Source: Salinigranum marinum
GTDB taxonomy: Archaea; Halobacteriota; Halobacteria; Halobacteriales; Haloferacaceae
Reading direction: 5' to 3'
Length of the DNA: 64,000 nt
Assembly: GCF_024228675.1 (NCBI RefSeq)
Contig: NZ_CP100461.1
Span: 186,001-250,000, forward strand
This document shows, piece by piece, positions 906 to 10,154 of this stretch. Positions within the stretch are counted from its first letter, which is position 1. The number at the start of each line of letters is the position of its first letter. A model generated the notes under the pieces. It had not been told where the DNA came from. It searched no databases and saw only the letters and a program-made list of their open reading frames with translations. The position numbers and the translations under genes were made by a program.

Positions 906-1475
906 TCAGCCGGCCCGGTTGATCGCGGTGAACGTCTCTCGCATCTCGGCGAAGTTCTCCTCGGAGACGGCGAGTTCCTCGCGGAGTTCATCGCTCCGCC
1001 GCTGCATCCGGAGGTACTCACCGGACTCCGCGAGCTGTTCGGACGCGTGCTCGGCCTCGAGCACGGCCAGTTTCGCGGTGAGACTGAAGAAGGCCGTGAG
1101 TGGGTCGTCGTACGACGCCGCCTCCAGTTGCTGATCGACAGCAGCGAAGAGGTCCGCTTTCTCGATCGGTTTGCAGAGGTAATCGTCGAAGGGCATGTCG
1201 GTGATTCCGAACCCGGGGTCGACCGCAGTCACCATGATGACCCGACAGTCGTACCCCTGGTCTCGGAGGTCTCTCAACACCTTGTCGCCCGAGTAGGGCA
1301 TCCGACGGTCCAACAGCACCACGTCGACCGACTCGTCCATCTCCGCGAGCGCTTGCTCGCCACCGTACGCCGTTCGGACGTCTCCGTATCGCGTCCGTAA
1401 CCGGAGCGCGTACGCATCGACGACTTCGCGTTCGTCGTCGACGACGAGAATCGTTCCCTCCCTTTCCTGTGCCAT
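906..1475 (-). CDS. HalX-domain response regulator
   Basis: This 189-residue protein has an N-terminal receiver domain (about residues 7-120) with the acidic pair D13/D14, phosphoacceptor D56 in LLDRRMP, T83 and K102 in CKPIEK. The C-terminal half is a charged helical segment typical of the haloarchaeal HalX domain, with no DNA-binding domain visible. The ATG at 1475 is chosen over an upstream GTG at 1502 because the receiver fold starts directly after it. A membrane histidine kinase is transcribed divergently from 1707, so I infer a cognate two-component pair. A 48-base repeat lies between the two genes. With no output domain, it probably acts through protein contacts or as a phosphorelay intermediate. 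Confidence 0.85.
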   Translation of the reverse strand: MAQEREGTILVVDDEREVVDAYALRLRTRYGDVRTAYGGEQALAEMDESVDVVLLDRRMPYSGDKVLRDLRDQGYDCRVIMVTAVDPGFGITDMPFDDYLCKPIEKADLFAAVDQQLEAASYDDPLTAFFSLTAKLAVLEAEHASEQLAESGEYLRMQRRSDELREELAVSEENFAEMRETFTAINRAG

Positions 1476-1560
1476 GGTATCACACGTAACGGGGTTCGTC
1501 ACTGGAGCTGTTATACTTTCGTGCGAAACTCGAATAGCGGCCTCGTGCTCGAGTTCGTTA

Positions 1561-1608: not shown

Positions 1609-1706
1609 CCACGACTGACCCCGCGAGCGTCCGCCTCGAGTGGGTGTGTGCTTCCGCGCCCGGTCCAGTGTGAATCCTTATCGTGCTCCTTGACAACACT
1701 CGACAC

Positions 1707-3515
1707 ATGCGGCTCCGGACGAAGTTCGCGGTCGTCTTCATCGTCGTGACACTCGTACTGAGTGGGTCGGTTCTCGCAGCCGTGGACTTCTACCGGCGCG
1801 ACGCGGTCGAGGAGTCCCGCGTGAACGTCGACGAGACAGCGACCCTGACGGCCGAGCAGATCGACGCATCGATCCGTGACAGACAGGACTACCTGGGACT
1901 CGTCGCGTCCCGGCCGGGCGCACGCCAGTTCGAGCAGCGCGGCCCGTTCCTCGACGCGTTGCTGGTGAACTCCCGGTTCTACGCCGCTCAGATCGTCGCC
2001 GCGAACGGGACCGTCATCGCCTTCCGCGGAGACATCACGGCTCAGCAGCGGCGAGCCGTCCTCGGATCGAACCGGAGCGCCGCGCCCTACGTCAGGGCGG
2101 CGCTCGACGGACGCTCGTTCGTGGGAGAGGGGGAGGCAGTCGACGGCGCCGACAGGCACGTCCTCGTGTTCAGCACGCCCATCTTCGAGGGCGGGGAGGT
2201 CACGGGCGTGCTCGCGGGGGCGATCGATCTCGACTCACAGACCGTTTTCGGCGCACTCCCGCCCCTAGAAACGAGCAGACAGACCGTTCGGGTCGTCGGG
2301 AACGGGATGGAACTCCGCGAGGGAGACCGCCAGTTCGCCGCGTCGATTGAGGCGTCCGCGACCGTCGAGGCGACCGGGTGGACGGTCACGGTCGTTCGGG
2401 ACCGCTCGGCGCTCGACGCCCGACTCCGTCGCCTGGGGCTGTTTCAGCTCGGCCAGCTGGGGATCGTCCTCCTGGTAATGGCCGGGTTCGGCTACTGGCA
2501 GTACGCCGCGAGCCTTCGGCAGACGGAGCGCCTCCTCGGAGGATTCGGCGACCTCGGGGCTGGAGAGTACGACCGTACCGTCTCGCTCAGTGGCGGCACC
2601 GAGTGGGAGCAGATCAGCGACGGGTTCAACGACCTTGCGGCGACGCTCCGAGCGCGCCAGGCGGCGCTTCGTCGACGAACACAGCGACTGGAAGTCATGT
2701 ACCGCGTGGTGCGGCACAACCTCCGGAACCAGCTGACGGTCCTGTTGACGTACGCAGACGTCATCGCCGACGTCACCGACGACGACGAGATACGCAGGGC
2801 GGCCCGGTCTATCGGCGACGCCGGCCGAACGCTCACGCATCTCAGCGAGCGTGCGCGTCAGATCGAGACCGCCCTCGCGGACGACCAGACGCCGTCGCGG
2901 GTCGACGTGAGCGACATCGTCTCCGATGTCGTCGCCGACCTCCGCGAGGCGTATCCGGCGGTGGCTATCGAGACGTCGCTCCCGGACGACGTCTGGGTGC
3001 GCGCCCTCCCCTCGCTCCGGATGGCGATCGAGAGCGTCTGTGAGAACGCCTGCCAGCACAACGACGCCGAGGATCCGCACCTCGAGGTGACCGTCTCCGT
3101 CGTCGACGGAACGGGTGAGCCCGGAACGAGCATAGAAGACTCGACCCGGCCCGACCCCGCCGATCACGGCGTCCAGGGGCCCGACCAGCGCAGTGGTGAG
3201 GCCGTCGAGCCTGCGCGGGACGATGGTGTCGCCGACAGCGAGAGCGACCACTGGGTCCGCGTCGCGGTCGCCGACAACGGCCCCGGTCTCCCCGAACAAG
3301 AGCGAACTGCGATCACCGAGGGACGCGAGACGGAACTCGAACACGCGAGCGGGCTCGGTCTCTGGTTGGCCCACTGGGTCGTCGACCGTTCCGGTGGCCA
3401 TCTCCGGTTCCACGACGCGTCACCTCGGGGGACGGTCGTCGAACTGCTGCTGCCGGGGGTCGCTGCAACGACGGCGACACCCGACTCGGACGGGGGGCCG
3501 GCCGGAGGACGCTAG
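1707..3515 (+). CDS. membrane sensor histidine kinase
   Basis: The 602-residue protein has a first membrane helix (about 8-27), an extracellular region (about 30-240) of likely Cache type, a second helix (about 243-262), a HAMP-like linker and a kinase core. The phosphoacceptor is H337 in RHNLRNQL, an H-box form common in haloarchaea. The ATPase domain shows the N box ENACQHND, the G1 box VADNGPGLP and the G2 box GLGLWLAHW. A polar insertion of roughly 45 residues rich in Asp, Glu, Pro and Ser separates N and G1 boxes, more than is usual. The ATG at 1707 is chosen because it directly precedes the first membrane helix. The divergent HalX regulator at 906-1475 is the likely partner. The signal sensed is unknown. 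Confidence 0.9.
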   Translation: MRLRTKFAVVFIVVTLVLSGSVLAAVDFYRRDAVEESRVNVDETATLTAEQIDASIRDRQDYLGLVASRPGARQFEQRGPFLDALLVNSRFYAAQIVAANGTVIAFRGDITAQQRRAVLGSNRSAAPYVRAALDGRSFVGEGEAVDGADRHVLVFSTPIFEGGEVTGVLAGAIDLDSQTVFGALPPLETSRQTVRVVGNGMELREGDRQFAASIEASATVEATGWTVTVVRDRSALDARLRRLGLFQLGQLGIVLLVMAGFGYWQYAASLRQTERLLGGFGDLGAGEYDRTVSLSGGTEWEQISDGFNDLAATLRARQAALRRRTQRLEVMYRVVRHNLRNQLTVLLTYADVIADVTDDDEIRRAARSIGDAGRTLTHLSERARQIETALADDQTPSRVDVSDIVSDVVADLREAYPAVAIETSLPDDVWVRALPSLRMAIESVCENACQHNDAEDPHLEVTVSVVDGTGEPGTSIEDSTRPDPADHGVQGPDQRSGEAVEPARDDGVADSESDHWVRVAVADNGPGLPEQERTAITEGRETELEHASGLGLWLAHWVVDRSGGHLRFHDASPRGTVVELLLPGVAATTATPDSDGGPAGGR

Positions 3516-3609: not shown

Positions 3610-5019
3610 CTACCGGTGACGACGGCGGACGGCGACGGAGAGCGCCGCCACGAGCAGTGCGACAGCAGTCGTCCCGAATCCGAGTCCGGGGACGGACTCG
3701 CCGCTCGTGGTCCCACCAGCCTCGGGACGCGCCGTGGGCGCGTCGTCCGTGGTCTCGGCTCGGGGGGTTCCCGTCCGTCCCGGTGTGGATGCACCCGTCG
3801 TCACGGTGTCCCCGGACTCGACCGTCACGTTCCCGACGAACCGCTCGTTGACGTACACCTGATACGTCCCGGGCTCGTCGAAGGAGCGCTCGAAGGTGGC
3901 CTGTCGGGTCCCGTTCGGGGCGATAGATAGCTCCGTGCGGTCCACCACGGTCTCTTCGAGGAGCAGTTTCACCGTGTACGTGCCGTCGGCGCCACCGACG
4001 TTCCGCACGCGGACCCGGACCTCGGTCCCCTGGTGTGTGCTGATCCGTGTGACGGTCACGAGCGCGTCGGTGATGCGGAACTTCGCCTGCTTGACGCCCG
4101 TCGTGAAGTCCGAGAGCCCGGGTGCCCTCGCCTCGAAGAAGTAGTGCGTCTCACCCTCGTCGACGAACCGGGTCGGGAGTTCGACCCACCCGCCCGCCTC
4201 GTGACGGTACAGCGCGACGTCCTCCGGGCCGGTCTCGTTCCCGGCCAGGCGGTCTTTCCGGACACGGACGTGGAACGTGACGTTACCGACGTCCTCGTTC
4301 GCGATGCTGTGATCGACGTGGACGTATCCCGCGGGTTCCGTTCCGTCGGCGGGGGCGAACGCGGGGACGTCGCCGAACCGACTCACGTTCGTCGCCACGC
4401 TGAGCGTGACGGATCCGGCACGTTCGGGCGTGAACGAGAGCGCGTCGACGGCGACGACGTCGTCGCGCGTCAACGGCCACGAGATGTTGAGCGACTGCGT
4501 CGTGTTCGCCTCGGCGTCCGTGATCGTGGCGTTCACTAGCGTCTTCCGCTCTAACACGCGCGACGGCGAGACGTCCGCGACCGTCCGCGTGTTCGTGAGC
4601 CAGACGTTCCGTTGTGGCTCGTCCGGGTCGGTGCTCAGGATGTGCAGCGTCGCGAACTGCGGGCGCGCGGTCGGGGCGTCGAAGGTGACGGTGACGTTCT
4701 GTCGCTCGCCCGGGCCGAGCGTCACCGGCCCCTCGAACGCTCGCTCGAACGACGCCCGGTCGGGCCCCACGATCGCGACCGCGTCGATCGTCAGCGGGGC
4801 GTCGCCCACGTTCCGTATCGAGAGCGTCCGCGCGTCCGACTCGTCCGTCGCGTTCGAGAAGCGGAGCACCTCGGGCTGGACCGCGATATCCGGTGTCGCG
4901 TCGACCTGCCGCGAGACTTGGCGCGTGGGCTGGACTGCCACCCCGACCGCGGCGGTCGAGAGCACGACCGCCACCACGAGGAGCACCCGTACGGTCCACC
5001 CGGGGACGTGTAGGTTCAT
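3610..5019 (-). CDS. surface protein with PGF-pre-PGF region and PGF-CTERM-like anchor
   Basis: The 469-residue protein starts with a signal-anchor helix (VRVLLVVAVVLSTAAVGVAV). An Ig-like domain follows (about 40-140, choice-of-anchor type, IRNVGDAPLTIDAVAI). The middle segment (NVTFHVRVRKDRL to SDFTTG) resembles the PGF-pre-PGF region of archaeal surface proteins. A CARDB-like domain (VTRISTHQGTEVRVRVRNVG) precedes a Thr/Pro-rich stalk and a tail of PGLGFG, hydrophobic helix and RRRHR. That tail matches the PGF-CTERM type of sorting signal processed by archaeosortase A and linked to lipid. Many NxT/NxS sequons suggest N-glycosylation. The ATG at 5019 puts the signal peptide at the start. 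It converges with the kinase gene. Binding function is unknown. Confidence 0.8.
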   Translation of the reverse strand: MNLHVPGWTVRVLLVVAVVLSTAAVGVAVQPTRQVSRQVDATPDIAVQPEVLRFSNATDESDARTLSIRNVGDAPLTIDAVAIVGPDRASFERAFEGPVTLGPGERQNVTVTFDAPTARPQFATLHILSTDPDEPQRNVWLTNTRTVADVSPSRVLERKTLVNATITDAEANTTQSLNISWPLTRDDVVAVDALSFTPERAGSVTLSVATNVSRFGDVPAFAPADGTEPAGYVHVDHSIANEDVGNVTFHVRVRKDRLAGNETGPEDVALYRHEAGGWVELPTRFVDEGETHYFFEARAPGLSDFTTGVKQAKFRITDALVTVTRISTHQGTEVRVRVRNVGGADGTYTVKLLLEETVVDRTELSIAPNGTRQATFERSFDEPGTYQVYVNERFVGNVTVESGDTVTTGASTPGRTGTPRAETTDDAPTARPEAGGTTSGESVPGLGFGTTAVALLVAALSVAVRRRHR

Positions 5020-5098
5020 GATCGTTGCCGTTCGTCGATGTATGCTAACATACGACAAATAGGTTGCCAGAGCGGCCGTAGTGTCTCCGAGTCGGGCT

Positions 5099-5539
5099 CT
5101 AGTACGGGTCCATGTCCTGGGGGAGTCCGTCGGGACCCCGCGACAGCGCGTACGGGTCCATGTCCTGCATCCGGAACGAGATGGTCACGTCGGCGGCGCC
5201 CGCGACGCCGATCGGGTCGGTGTCTCGCACGTCCCAGGGACCCGCGCGGACGGTCACGTTATTGATCGGGAACATGACGGACAGGTTGTCGATCGGGAAC
5301 GCAGCCGGGAACGGGTCGTTACCCTTCCCGTCCAGCACGGTCAGCGGGGTGCCCGTCGCGGCGGTCAGGTTATCGATCGGGAACGCGAGCGCCGACGCGT
5401 GTGGCCCACTCGGTCCGTCCGCGTGGGCCGTCGCGGGTGCGAACCCCACGACACCGGCCGCACCGCTCGTGAGAACGACGCCGACCAGCAGCAGTGTGAG
5501 GGCGATTCCATCGGCGATGTGGGTGTCTTCCATCATCAC
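5099..5539 (-). CDS. small secreted protein with LDGKGND motif and internal repeats
   Basis: About 145 residues with an N-terminal export helix (IALTLLLVGVVLTSGAAG) followed by a low-complexity mature part. FPIDNL occurs twice and MFPINN once, and the segment QDMDPY occurs near the C terminus and again as its last residues, encoded by an 18-base direct repeat (5102-5119 and 5151-5168). The motif LDGKGND also occurs twice in the small secreted protein at 8875-9138. I do not recognise the family, and no enzyme motif is visible. Cysteine is absent. It lies just upstream of, and divergent from, the DUF7331-like gene and the Bat-like sensor genes, which suggests a link to that signalling cluster. 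The first or third Met is the likely start. Confidence 0.6.
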   Translation of the reverse strand: MMMEDTHIADGIALTLLLVGVVLTSGAAGVVGFAPATAHADGPSGPHASALAFPIDNLTAATGTPLTVLDGKGNDPFPAAFPIDNLSVMFPINNVTVRAGPWDVRDTDPIGVAGAADVTISFRMQDMDPYALSRGPDGLPQDMDPY

Positions 5540-5673
5540 ATCTACTGCTCGGTCGGAGACGGCGATGAGAACAGTTGCTCAGTGTTGAGGGAGCCATGAT
5601 TCTCGACACCCTCAGTATCTAGAGGACAGCCGTCGGCGCGGCGGCTCAATACTTCGCAGGTACTGTCAGGGGG

Positions 5674-5892
5674 ATGGTCGACGACCGAACACATGTACCC
5701 GATGGGGACCAGCGCCCCACGACAGGGACGGTGATCACGATGACCTCGAGCCACGACACGCACGACCGGAGCCAGCCCGACGGCCGAATCCACCTCCTGC
5801 CCGCGGACGACGGCGTCGTCATCTACGACGTCGAGACGCCGTCCGGGTGGCTCAAATCCGACCACGCGGTCGCTCTCGCGGACTGGCGGTAA
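5674..5892 (+). CDS. small DUF7331-like protein
   Basis: This 72-residue acidic protein ends in GVVIYDVETPSGWLKSDHAV, which resembles the conserved core of small haloarchaeal DUF7331-type proteins (YDTENPxAWxxSD). The function of that family is unknown. A TATA-like CAATACTT about 27 bases upstream favours the ATG at 5674, although an in-frame ATG at 5740 would still keep the conserved core. It precedes the Bat-like regulator by about 90 bases on the same strand and could be co-transcribed with it. Confidence 0.55.
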   Translation: MVDDRTHVPDGDQRPTTGTVITMTSSHDTHDRSQPDGRIHLLPADDGVVIYDVETPSGWLKSDHAVALADWR

Positions 5893-5980
5893 CCTCGCTA
5901 GCCGATGTCCGGACGGACAGGGCGAGTGCTCCTGCGGGTCGGTCCGAATCTTGACTACTGATACCATCCAACACGGTAGT

Positions 5981-7603
5981 ATGAACGACGCCCTCGATCA
6001 CGTGACCGAAGGCGTGCTCGTCGTCGACGCCGACTGGCACGTCACTCGGGCGAACGCCGTCGCGGCGACCCACCTCGGCCGTGACCCCTCGGAGCTGACC
6101 GGCGTCGACGTCCGCGACGTCTTTCCCCGGTCGGTCGACTCGACGTTCCACGAGTCCGTCGCTGACGACGACTCGGAGCCCGAAGCGGTCGCGTTCGAGG
6201 ACTACTTTCCCGATCTCGAGGCGTGGTTCGCGGTCCGGACGGTCCCCGTCGACGGCGGGGCAGTGGTCGTCTTCCACGACGTCACCGCTCGCAAGGACCT
6301 CGAACGCTCGATCGACGACCGCGAGGCGGAACTGGACCGGCTCACGCGCATCAACGCGACCATTCAGGAGATCATCCGCGAGTTAGTGGGCGCGACGACT
6401 CGCGAGGAGATCGAGCGGACGGTCTGTGACCGACTCGCCGCGAGCGATCTCTACGCGTTCACCTGGGTCGGCGAGCGCGACCCGATATCCGACCGACTCA
6501 TCCACCGGAGTGCCGCCGGCGAGTACGAGGGTGTCGTCGAGTTGCTCGTCGAAGGGAGCGAGACGTCCGATGGGCCGGAGTCGCTCGAACACGCCGTCGT
6601 CCGAACCGGTGAGACACGACTCGTTCGGCAACTCGTCGAGGACGAGTCAGTCCCCGACCCGATACGGCGCGTCGCGTTCGCGCGCGGGTTACAGTCCGCC
6701 ATCGCCGTCCCCGTTCGGTACGGCACCACCACCTACGGCGTCCTGGGCGTGTACGCCGCTCGCCCGGACGCGTTCAGCGAGCGCGAGCGCGAGAGCCTGG
6801 AGACGCTGGGCGTCGCAACGGGGTTCGTCATCAACGCCGCTCGGCAGCGCAACCTCCTCCTGTCGGACACTGTCGTCGAACTCACGTTCCGCGTGACCGA
6901 TCCCGAGGACGCCCTGGTGGCGACGTCGTCCCGACTGGCGTGTTCGCTCGCGGTGGAAGGCATCGTTCCGCTCGCCGAAGGCGCGCTGCGCTGTTTCGTC
7001 AGTATCGAGGGAGCGCCACCCGGAGACGTCCACGAGACGGTGACAGACTCGACGGGGTTCGCGGACGCCCGCGTCGTCCACGAGACCGCAGCCGACGAGG
7101 CGACCGACGGTGGACTGCTCGAACTCTCCATCACTGACGCGTCACCGCTCTTGACCCTGGTGGAGCGCGGCGCAACCGTCCGTACGGCGACGTTCACCGA
7201 AGGTGTCGGCCGGGTCGTCGCGGAACTCGCCCCCGACGAGGACGTCCGCGCGGTCGTCGAGGCCGTCGGCGATCGGTTTCCCGGCTCGGATCTCCTCGCG
7301 AAGCGGGAGCGAGAGCGGGCCGTCGAGACGGCCCAGGAGTTCCGAAGCTCGCTCCACGAGCGACTCACCGACCGCCAGCAGACGGCACTGCGTGTGGCGT
7401 ACCACGGCGGCTACTTCCAGTCACCGCGTGACAGCACGGCCGAGGAACTCGCCGAGGGGCTCGGTATCACCTCGCCCACGCTCCACTACCACCTCCGGGC
7501 CGCCCAGTGGAAGCTGGTCGACGCGTTCCTCGCCGATGACCCGGATCGACCACACCGCGACGAGCGTGACGCGTGGCACGGTGACGAGGAGGATAACCAA
7601 TGA
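5981..7603 (+). CDS. Bat-like regulator: PAS, GAF, bacterio-opsin activator and HTH_10 domains
   Basis: The 540-residue protein has a PAS domain (about 1-105, EGVLVVDADWHVTRANA), a GAF domain (about 130-290, LQSAIAVPVRYGTTTYGVLG), a bacterio-opsin-activator region (about 300-450) and a C-terminal HTH_10 domain (LTDRQQTALRVAYHGGYF, then an ELAEGLGITSPTLHYHL recognition helix). Such proteins are soluble haloarchaeal transcription regulators that sense small ligands, redox state or light. The ATG at 5981 is preferred to a TTG at 5951 because the PAS domain begins there. The stop overlaps the next gene's start by four bases (ATGA), so it is translationally coupled to the kinase. No receiver domain is present, so phosphorylation by that kinase would be indirect. 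Confidence 0.88.
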   Translation: MNDALDHVTEGVLVVDADWHVTRANAVAATHLGRDPSELTGVDVRDVFPRSVDSTFHESVADDDSEPEAVAFEDYFPDLEAWFAVRTVPVDGGAVVVFHDVTARKDLERSIDDREAELDRLTRINATIQEIIRELVGATTREEIERTVCDRLAASDLYAFTWVGERDPISDRLIHRSAAGEYEGVVELLVEGSETSDGPESLEHAVVRTGETRLVRQLVEDESVPDPIRRVAFARGLQSAIAVPVRYGTTTYGVLGVYAARPDAFSERERESLETLGVATGFVINAARQRNLLLSDTVVELTFRVTDPEDALVATSSRLACSLAVEGIVPLAEGALRCFVSIEGAPPGDVHETVTDSTGFADARVVHETAADEATDGGLLELSITDASPLLTLVERGATVRTATFTEGVGRVVAELAPDEDVRAVVEAVGDRFPGSDLLAKRERERAVETAQEFRSSLHERLTDRQQTALRVAYHGGYFQSPRDSTAEELAEGLGITSPTLHYHLRAAQWKLVDAFLADDPDRPHRDERDAWHGDEEDNQ

Positions 7604-8721
7604 CCGAGGACACGAGTGTCGGGTCGGACCGGGACTCGCTTGAGCCTCCGCTGTTCGACGCGTTTCCCGACCCGCTCTTGGTATACGGGAGCGAGCGGGC
7701 AGGCGGGTCGGATTCGAGCCCCGATTCGCTCGTCCTTCGCGCGGCCAACCCCGCGTTCGTCTCGACGTTCGACGTCGAGCCCGACCGGGTCGGCGCGCCG
7801 CTCGACCACGTCGCTATTGCCGGCCGGATCGCGTCCGACACGGACGACGCCGACGTCGACGACAGCAGTTCGGACGACACGACGACCGTGAGAGCGATCC
7901 TCGATGTCGTCCGCGGAACAGCCGACTCGACGCTTCGACTCACGCAGGATCACCCCGGCGATAGCCGTCACTTCCACGTCCGGGCGATCGACGTTCGGGC
8001 GAACGACGCGGAGTCCGACGACGTCGACGGCTGTCTCTGCTTCACCGAGGTTTCGGACCTCGAACGACGTCGACGCGAACTCGTGGCGAGGGTCGACCGC
8101 CTCGAACGAATCGCGGACGTCGTGAGTCACGACATCCGGAATCCCCTCGAAGTTGCCAGCATCCGGCTCGAAGCGGCACAGGAGACGAACGAGGCTGTCC
8201 ACTTCGAGAAGGTCGCGGGCGCGCTCGCCCGCATCGAACAGTTGGTCAGTGACGTCCTCTCGGTCGGTGCGGGGAGGGTCGACCCGACCGACACGGTCGC
8301 GCTGGGGGACGCCGCCGAGTCCGCGTGGGCGACAGTCGACACGGCCGAGGCCACGCTCGTCATCGACCCGAAGGCACCGACCATCCGGGCCGATATCGAT
8401 CGTCTCCGCCAGGTGTTCGAGAACCTCTTTCGCAACGCCGTCGAGCACGCGGGACGCGACGCGACCGTGACCGTCGAACTGCTTCCGGACGGGTTCGCGG
8501 TCGTCGACGACGGCCCGGGCATTCCCCCGGAGATCGGCGAGCGTGTGTTCGAGATCGGTGTGTCGACCACGCCAGGGAGTCGGGGGCTCGGACTCTCCAT
8601 CGTCGATCGAATCGCACGGGAGCACGGCTGGCAAGTATCGGTCGCGTCACCCGACTCCGGGTCGGCCGATTCGGACGCGGGAGCCAGATTCGAGTTCACG
8701 GGCGTCACGCTCGTCGACTGA
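7600..8721 (+). CDS. soluble sensor histidine kinase
   Basis: This 373-residue protein lacks membrane helices. A divergent PAS-like region covers about residues 15-150, followed by a HisKA helix with phosphoacceptor H177 in VSHDIRNPLEVA. The ATPase domain shows the N box NLFRNAVEHA, the G1 box VVDDGPGIPPE and the G2 box GLGLSIVDRIAREHGW. It overlaps the Bat-like regulator by four bases, indicating one operon and probably a shared cytosolic signal. No receiver gene is adjacent, so its partner is encoded elsewhere or is the HalX protein at 906-1475. A small secreted protein follows after about 150 bases. Confidence 0.88.
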   Translation: MTEDTSVGSDRDSLEPPLFDAFPDPLLVYGSERAGGSDSSPDSLVLRAANPAFVSTFDVEPDRVGAPLDHVAIAGRIASDTDDADVDDSSSDDTTTVRAILDVVRGTADSTLRLTQDHPGDSRHFHVRAIDVRANDAESDDVDGCLCFTEVSDLERRRRELVARVDRLERIADVVSHDIRNPLEVASIRLEAAQETNEAVHFEKVAGALARIEQLVSDVLSVGAGRVDPTDTVALGDAAESAWATVDTAEATLVIDPKAPTIRADIDRLRQVFENLFRNAVEHAGRDATVTVELLPDGFAVVDDGPGIPPEIGERVFEIGVSTTPGSRGLGLSIVDRIAREHGWQVSVASPDSGSADSDAGARFEFTGVTLVD

Positions 8722-8874
8722 TCGATCGATGACGACGCGGAGCGAATCACGGTGGGTGATGCGGGTGGAAACAGTCCTCGGGCACGGTCTAGATACCGAG
8801 AGATCACTTCCGAAAACACGCTTCAATACTAAGCATCCGTCTCCATCGAGTACCCCTCCCTGGGTACATCTGTG

Positions 8875-9138
8875 ATGACGGCACTGACTCACACCACGGC
8901 TGGACGCACTGCACTCAGAACACTCCTCGTCGCGGTCGTGCTGACGGCCGGGATCGCTGGCACCGTCGGGACAGTCGCGGCCGAACCCATAGACGGGATG
9001 GGCGACGATCCGCACGGGGATGACCTCTTCGCGTCGCTCGATGGGAAGGGGAACGACGTGTACCCCCCGCCGGGAGTCTACGCATCGCTCGATGGGAAGG
9101 GGAACGACGTGTACCCCCCACCGGGAGTCTACGCGTAA
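8875..9138 (+). CDS. small secreted protein ending in a perfect tandem repeat
   Basis: The 87-residue protein has an export signal (TLLVAVVLTAGIAGTVGTVA) and a short mature region that ends with two identical copies of the 17-residue unit ASLDGKGNDVYPPPGVY plus a final Ala. The two copies differ at only two bases in 51. LDGKGND is shared with the secreted protein at 5099-5539, and the two genes bracket the Bat/kinase operon. I do not recognise the family. The first codon could be GTG at 8872 or the ATG at 8875; ATG is preferred. The gene has about 150 bases of upstream sequence, so it may have its own promoter. Confidence 0.6.
   Translation: MTALTHTTAGRTALRTLLVAVVLTAGIAGTVGTVAAEPIDGMGDDPHGDDLFASLDGKGNDVYPPPGVYASLDGKGNDVYPPPGVYA
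9031..9132 (+). repeat. 51-base tandem repeat, two units, in-frame
   Basis: Units 9031-9081 and 9082-9132 differ at two positions (gcg/gca near the start and ccg/cca near the end) and each encodes 17 residues of the secreted protein. The synonymous differences show that the duplication is slightly older than a fresh slippage event, or that the peptide sequence is under selection. Confidence 0.9.
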
Positions 9139-9304
9139 CACGAGGCAGCCGGGGCTATCGATGGACTAGGTAACCGAAGCCGCAGATGCAGTTGCAGACG
9201 AGTGTGACGAACCCCGCTGGCGCGCGATGTCTTCGCACGACCGCCGTCGGTCGTGAGAGACGGACCACCTCGTCGAGCGCGCGAACCGTTTCACACAAGC
9301 GCAA

Positions 9305-9336
9305 GGCGGAAGCCCACGACTTCAGTCGTGGGTTAC
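9305..9336 (+). repeat. palindromic element end, copy 1 (GGCGGAAGCCCACGAC family)
   Basis: The core is a 9-base inverted repeat, CCCACGACT/AGTCGTGGG, with a 2-base loop, preceded by GGCGGAAG. Related copies are at 21011-21050 (plus) and 30111-30150 (minus), with a half copy at 12743-12761. This motif is typical of the right end of haloarchaeal IS200/IS605/IS1341-type TnpB elements. No tnpB adjoins it. It overlaps the last codons of the HTH_10 gene on the minus strand. Confidence 0.7.
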
Positions 9337-10053
9337 TGATACGCCGTTCAGGTACTCGGTGACGAGCTGTTCTTCGGCGCGTCGCAGTCGGTACGAGAGC
9401 GTCGACCGCGGGATCTCCAGTTTCGACGCCAGTTCCTCGAGCGTGATCTCGCTCGGCGCCCGGTAGTATCCGTGGCGGGCGGCCGCGCGTAACGCCGTCC
9501 GCTGGTTGGGGTCGAGCGAGACCGTCCCGAGCGAGTCGTGCCCCCACCGGTCGGCGTCCCGGAGGTGACCCATGTGGAACGAGAGCTCGGACCGCAAGTT
9601 CGCGCTGAGGGCGTCGTAGAGCAGGCCGACCTTCTCGTCCGACCGCATCAGGATGCGCCACTCGTGTCGGCCCTCCGACCGGCGGGAACAGAGGAGCGAC
9701 CCACGCGGGAGATACTGACCGGCGAGCGTCTGGACGGATTTGCCGCCGCTGATTCTCTCGACGTACGTGTAGAACACCCGCTCCCCGTCTGATCGCTCTA
9801 TGACCTCGTGGTGTTCCGTGGCGAGGCAGTCCGTCTCGGTCACTGACTCCGTCCGGACGTCCTCGTCGAGGTGGAGCCGTTCGACCGCGTCGAGCGCCAC
9901 CGGCGGCCCGCTGAGACGTTCGACGCGCCAGAAGTCATCGTCGTTCACACAGCCGTGTAATCCCCGCGCGACGAGCGACGGGTGGTCGATGAACACGTCC
10001 ATCATCGGATCGGTACCGGCCTCGTAGTCGATGCTGAACGTGAACTCGCGCAT
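9322..10053 (-). CDS. HTH_10 transcription regulator
   Basis: The 243-residue protein has an N-terminal ligand-binding-like region (about 1-180) and a C-terminal HTH_10 domain: LDPNQRTALRAAARHGYYRA followed by the recognition segment ELASKLEIPRSTLSYRLRRAEE. It lacks PAS or GAF domains, so it belongs to the short class of Bat-related regulators. The ATG at 10053 is chosen because the conserved MREFTFSIDYE starts there. The last residues (VSVTHD and stop) are encoded inside a palindromic element end, so the original C terminus was probably replaced by insertion. It is divergent from the methanethiol-oxidase gene and is a plausible regulator of that operon. Confidence 0.85.
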   Translation of the reverse strand: MREFTFSIDYEAGTDPMMDVFIDHPSLVARGLHGCVNDDDFWRVERLSGPPVALDAVERLHLDEDVRTESVTETDCLATEHHEVIERSDGERVFYTYVERISGGKSVQTLAGQYLPRGSLLCSRRSEGRHEWRILMRSDEKVGLLYDALSANLRSELSFHMGHLRDADRWGHDSLGTVSLDPNQRTALRAAARHGYYRAPSEITLEELASKLEIPRSTLSYRLRRAEEQLVTEYLNGVSVTHD

Positions 10054-10154
10054 CACGGACGCTCCGGTTCGTCGTGGAGACTTGGTAACACACCGTCGAA
10101 CTACGCCGGCGAGCCCAAAAGACTTCCCTCCTCGGTTGTCAGTCGACAACTAAA

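Follow-up and report, generated by a model that had tools for sequence, protein, structure and literature searches.

What do two small genes of the haloarchaeon Salinigranum marinum, placed on either side of an operon for a Bat-like regulator and a histidine kinase, do for the cell? We addressed this question within a window comprising a 64,000-nt stretch of the genome, in which an initial annotation had described two small proteins sharing an LDGKGND motif around that operon and had proposed that they are peptide signals or the precursors of such signals. The reading that we prefer, at a probability of roughly 55%, is that the two proteins, termed A and B here, are exported, disordered repeat-motif proteins and the transcriptional output of a conserved Bat-like sensory cluster. 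Both open reading frames exist as described, and their layout is as follows:

5099 to 5539, minus strand: gene A, 146 aa, with relatives in other species
5102 to 5119, minus strand: second QDMDPY of A, its last six residues and exact C-terminus
5150 to 5167, minus strand: first QDMDPY of A, aa 125-130
5315 to 5335, minus strand: LDGKGND motif of A, aa 69-75, single copy
8872 to 9138, plus strand: gene B, 88 aa, with a Sec-type signal (VAA before EP)
9034 to 9135, plus strand: two tandem ASLDGKGNDVYPPPGVY units of B, 17 aa or 51 nt each

The motif counts and the duplicated end segments given in the initial annotation held as well, since A contains LDGKGND once and B contains it at aa 56-62 and again at aa 73-79, QDMDPY occurs twice in A, and B ends in two 17-aa units, the 51-nt DNA copies of which are identical at 49 of 51 positions. 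In addition, A carries three FPI(D/N)N-x-T/S units, starting at aa 53, 81 and 90. An 18-nt DGKGND pattern has five exact matches in the 4.9-Mb genome, all within A, B and a second B copy (G000:C1:1933444-1933830), while the reversed pattern, used as a control, has none. The reported lack of cysteine is true of the A and B proteins of the window but is no family trait, because the relatives P0007, P0008 and P0016 have one cysteine each.

Comparison across species indicates that A and B are real, related genes selected at the protein level. Between A of the window and its counterparts in two congeners, pN is 0.04-0.06 against a pS of 0.41-0.42, and the constraint among orthologues (pN well under pS) is greatest at the C-terminus of A; together with the cross-species conservation, the low pN rules out that the genes are spurious open reading frames. 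In a sample with one genome per species, A was identified in 6 of 170 Haloferacaceae genomes, namely in all four Salinigranum genomes examined (including G001, Salinigranum salinum, a congener of the window), in G049 and in G061 (Halogranum amylolyticum), and the same six genomes encode B. A further A gene is present in G210, a genome from another family of the same order. The genome G007 was considered as a seventh Haloferacaceae carrier and set aside, its weak match lying inside a 411-aa open frame and being taken as chance.

Since the N-terminal segment and the FPIDN unit are common to A and B, the two are paralogues, and by these shared features they constitute two branches of one lineage-restricted family. 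All seven A proteins end exactly in QDMDPY, which they contain once or twice, following a hydrophobic segment, the N-region of which is acidic, and one to four FPI(D/N)N-x-T/S units. The B proteins contain two to five DGKGND-type units spaced 15-18 residues apart, followed in six of the seven by one FPI(D/N)N-type unit and GRGGGSGKPSF. The number of motif copies thus varies among family members, and DGKGND is absent from A of three genomes (G001, G049 and G061). B of the window is atypical, as it lacks the FPINNVTV...GRGGGSGKPSF C-terminus that the other six B proteins keep.

That the proteins belong to no named family was borne out by the searches. Neither A nor B matched Pfam or PHROGs; NCBIfam returned a single line for A (E 0.13, far below the cut-off) and holds no family that fits A or B; the best hits among PDB chains (E 0.031 and 0.075) were no credible relatives; plasmid and viral collections contained no relatives, and a literature search on the motifs of A and B gave no match. 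The motif and its neighbourhood do, nevertheless, recur in other haloarchaea, as the profile search proposed in the initial annotation was meant to establish. The genes around A are:

906 to 1502, minus strand: HalX response regulator, kept in the cluster in six Haloferacaceae genomes
1683 to 3515, plus strand: membrane histidine kinase with an extracellular dCache_1 sensor domain, kept in the cluster in six genomes
3610 to 5058, minus strand: surface protein downstream of A (choice-of-anchor-D domain, PGF-pre-PGF domain), with 5019 as the likely ATG start
5674 to 5892, plus strand: small DUF7331 protein, encoded between gene A and the regulator gene
5951 to 7603, plus strand: Bat-like regulator P0003, PAS-GAF-BAT-HTH_10 (alternative ATG start at 5981)
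7600 to 8721, plus strand: soluble histidine kinase, HisKA-HATPase, overlapping the Bat-like gene by 4 nt

The GAF, BAT and HTH_10 domains of P0003 were recognized by Pfam (PF15915, 3.9e-44; PF04967, 5e-19; PF13185, 1.2e-13). In all six Haloferacaceae carriers, A and the Bat-like/kinase operon are in divergent orientation and A adjoins the gene for the PGF-pre-PGF surface protein, beyond which the dCache kinase and the HalX regulator follow in conserved order, so that by gene order A is linked to this cluster. Orthologues of the Bat-like protein are 69-83% identical in the sampled A carriers and at most 47% identical elsewhere (89-genome sample), with the Halogranum orthologue at 61%. B adjoins the operon kinase in three of the six genomes (G000, G002 and G003) and is located elsewhere in G001, G049 and G061, as is the second G000 copy; the flanking genes of these dispersed copies are not shared. 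No DUF7331 homologue was detected at the corresponding place in the relative locus L051, and in G210 the A gene and its promoter are present with the Bat operon not linked. The initial annotation spoke of two soluble sensors, which applies to the Bat-like protein and the operon kinase but not to the cluster as a whole, because its third sensor, the dCache kinase, is a membrane protein and has a domain outside the cell.

Several further features lie near the A and B genes. Directly after B, positions 9322-10149 (minus strand) encode a second HTH_10 regulator, of the HVO_2928_N type, which is outside the conserved set, as only its HTH region matches in related clusters. Positions 9300-9335 hold GAAGCCCACGACTTCAGTCGTGGGTT, an inverted repeat present also near the B gene of L056, which looks like one end of an IS200/IS605-type element. 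A 33-nt dispersed repeat, 94% identical, occurs near two otherwise unrelated B loci (L049:7971-8003 and L053:7645-7677), and one B copy lies downstream of a tRNA-Thr gene, at a distance of about 330 nt. A mobile cassette was considered for the B copies and rejected: they have no flanking genes in common and their homology spans the promoter and the gene, and in the L055/L056 pair reaching beyond them by about 120 nt in either direction.

The new element that ties these genes together is a common two-box promoter with near-fixed spacing, present before all 14 A and B genes. In the window, its copies are:

5577 to 5623, minus strand: promoter boxes of A, TCTAGATA ... ACACTGAGC
8788 to 8834, plus strand: promoter boxes of B, TCTAGATA ... 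AATACTAAGC
5616 to 5653, plus strand: element facing the DUF7331, Bat-like and kinase genes, TATCTAGAG, 20 nt, CTCAATACT

The design consists of a TCTAG-N4-CTAGA-like element, then ATACTnAGC, then GTGATG. A TCTAGnTA-like box lies at about -84, an nACTnAGC-like box at about -45 and a CATCG-like stretch at about -28, ahead of GTGATG; these positions are constant in 14/14 genes, with shifts of no more than 2 nucleotides, and upstream of -90 the conservation drops to background. The element at 5616-5653 has box 1 in common with the promoter of A, a similar arrangement is seen in G001, G002, G003 and G049, and the region between A and the Bat operon bears the same elements in both directions, most strongly in the three closest species. 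The promoter profile R1 matches the three family genes and nothing else in the 4.9-Mb genome; across 197 relatives it matches family genes and, weakly, one gene for a Tat-type exported protein. Likewise, among 125 loci, the perfect TCTAGNNNNCTAGA is confined to sites preceding B genes, the A gene of G210 and the Tat-type gene. Box 1 is degenerate in several A and B genes, that of the G061 A gene retaining the CTAGA half, and within the window alone the TCTAG-N4-CTAGA palindrome is not beyond chance; the case for the promoter therefore rests on its cross-species spacing. No RNA structure was predicted in the leader. This shared divergent promoter region and the co-occurrence of the genes support a regulatory link between the Bat-like/kinase operon and A/B.

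The Tat-type gene (L052:2859-3350 and L054:2365-2901, both plus strand; about 165-180 aa, with an SRRSVL motif) adjoins the HalX regulator of the same cluster behind a perfect TCTAG-N4-CTAGA, one case being in S. salinum, and nothing comparable was seen at the equivalent position of the window. It is possibly a third target of the system. Another near-palindrome, GTATGYTARCATAC, lies at 5040-5053 between A and the surface-protein gene, and since G002 and G003 retain a similar TGTTAGCATACA, that gene may have a promoter of its own.

Because no other protein of the conserved cluster has a recognized DNA-binding domain, the Bat-like protein, with its HTH_10 domain, would be the binder of the TCTAG-N4-CTAGA-like box. 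The kinases would sense a cue, upon which the Bat-like protein would switch on A, B and its own operon through the shared divergent promoter. A precedent is found in Bat, the bacterioopsin activator of Halobacterium salinarum, a sensory regulator that acts on a few promoters via an upstream activator sequence and has the PAS/GAF-BAT-HTH_10 domains in common with the Salinigranum regulator (PMC3184054). The system described here differs from it in its proposed targets, an unnamed exported repeat family, in the histidine kinase within the operon and in the candidate TCTAG-N4-CTAGA-like promoter box.

Features of the N-termini support the view that A and B are exported, presumably by Sec. The claim of export signals suits B best: all seven B proteins have A-x-A before E/DP, which is a textbook Sec signal. 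In A, inspection of the sequence reveals a hydrophobic segment but no evident cleavage site; the N-region is acidic, which makes membrane anchoring rather than release possible. Type IV pilins were considered too, as a class III signal (a charged residue and G/A before the hydrophobic segment) is present in some members; in P0017 and P0018, two divergent A proteins, as well as in several of the B proteins, it is disrupted, and this assignment was rejected. All 19 N-x-S/T sequons of the A and B proteins lie inside the FPI(D/N)N unit, B of the window having none, and A and B may accordingly be glycosylated on their FPI(D/N)N-x-T/S units. AlphaFold models show an N-terminal helix followed by disorder at low confidence, which, given input alignments of only one and three sequences, is weak evidence for disorder. 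The short motifs (DGKGND, FPIDNxT/S and the C-terminal QDMDPY) could then serve for multivalent recognition, either on the surface of the cell or in its medium.

A special case of this explanation is that A and B are structural or adhesive proteins of the surface or matrix with no part in signalling, i.e. glycosylated disordered linkers or multivalent ligands of the cell envelope or biofilm, in which recombination tunes the number of repeats. The confinement of the sequons to repeats (19/19), the variable repeat number and the neighbouring PGF-pre-PGF surface-protein gene are in line with it, and we regard it as a tenable, if tentative, alternative. However, the proteins are very small, with about 50-110 residues beyond the N-terminal segment, and a simple linker would not need the invariant exact C-terminus of A. 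Haloarchaeal surface glycoproteins of the S-layer or PGF-CTERM type resemble A and B in export features and N-glycosylation sequons, whereas A and B are tiny, lack the PGF-CTERM anchor and match no such family.

The signal precursors of the initial annotation would yield short secreted peptides, such as QDMDPY or the DGKGND unit, in an autoinduction loop: extracellular proteases would free the peptides, and the dCache kinase, or the soluble sensors after import, would detect them. The multi-copy short motifs are indeed better conserved than the spacers, and the promoter is held in common with a sensor/regulator operon. Small exported-type proteins with repeated motifs next to sensor or regulator genes also recall the yeast alpha-factor and the RRNPP-type propeptides of Firmicutes (PMC10075063), from which A and B differ in having neither conserved processing sites nor an RRNPP receptor. 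Thus, the exported-type N-termini and the repeated motifs of the earlier proposal stood, but no conserved protease site was found between the motif copies or flanking QDMDPY or DGKGND across relatives; the adjacent residues vary, those preceding QDMDPY being RM, RL, LP, LG and PG. Moreover, the dCache domain varies no more than does the kinase part of the same protein, giving no sign of co-diversification with a ligand, and the second B copies are far from the sensors of this cluster. dCache domains usually bind small molecules, which also counts against a peptide ligand. Although an N-glycosylation-competent, motif-rich region would fit a surface or matrix role and a signal role equally well, the missing processing site combined with the sequon pattern favours a glycosylated, multivalent surface role over signal precursors. 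The invariant C-terminus of A and the linked extracellular sensor keep the precursors under consideration, and from these sequence features a peptide-signal role is possible but unproven; overall, we judge it improbable. Even less probable, in our estimate, is the specific claim that A and B form a first archaeal multi-copy peptide signal system, in which the linked kinase would read the motifs through its extracellular sensor and the Bat-like regulator would amplify the response via the shared promoter.

Halocin-like antimicrobial peptides under sensory control would likewise be small, exported, lineage-restricted and encoded by dispersed copies, but A and B are acidic and disordered, their motifs evolve slowly and neither an immunity gene nor an exporter is conserved beside the B copies, the flanking genes of which are not shared, making this very unlikely. 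RTX-type or EF-hand-type calcium sites can be practically dismissed, for although DGKGNDVY looks to us like the RTX nonapeptide GGxGxDxUx and GKGND-like motifs do recall RTX repeats, the units lie 15-18 residues apart at one to five per protein instead of 9 in tandem, Pfam gives no match, and A of G001, G049 and G061 lacks DGKGND altogether.

Returning to the preferred reading, the family itself, its exported-type N-termini, the variable repeats, the promoter before 14/14 genes and the linkage of A to the cluster are the parts established at the level of sequence. Should any of the repeated motifs turn out to be released as a peptide, this would count as evidence of archaeal peptide signalling, which is not described in the literature searched. 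Bat-like HTH_10 regulators are abundant in haloarchaea, and only for a minority of them are natural targets and promoter elements known; the locus described here would offer a compact set of regulator, promoter and targets with a defined DNA element that is directly testable.
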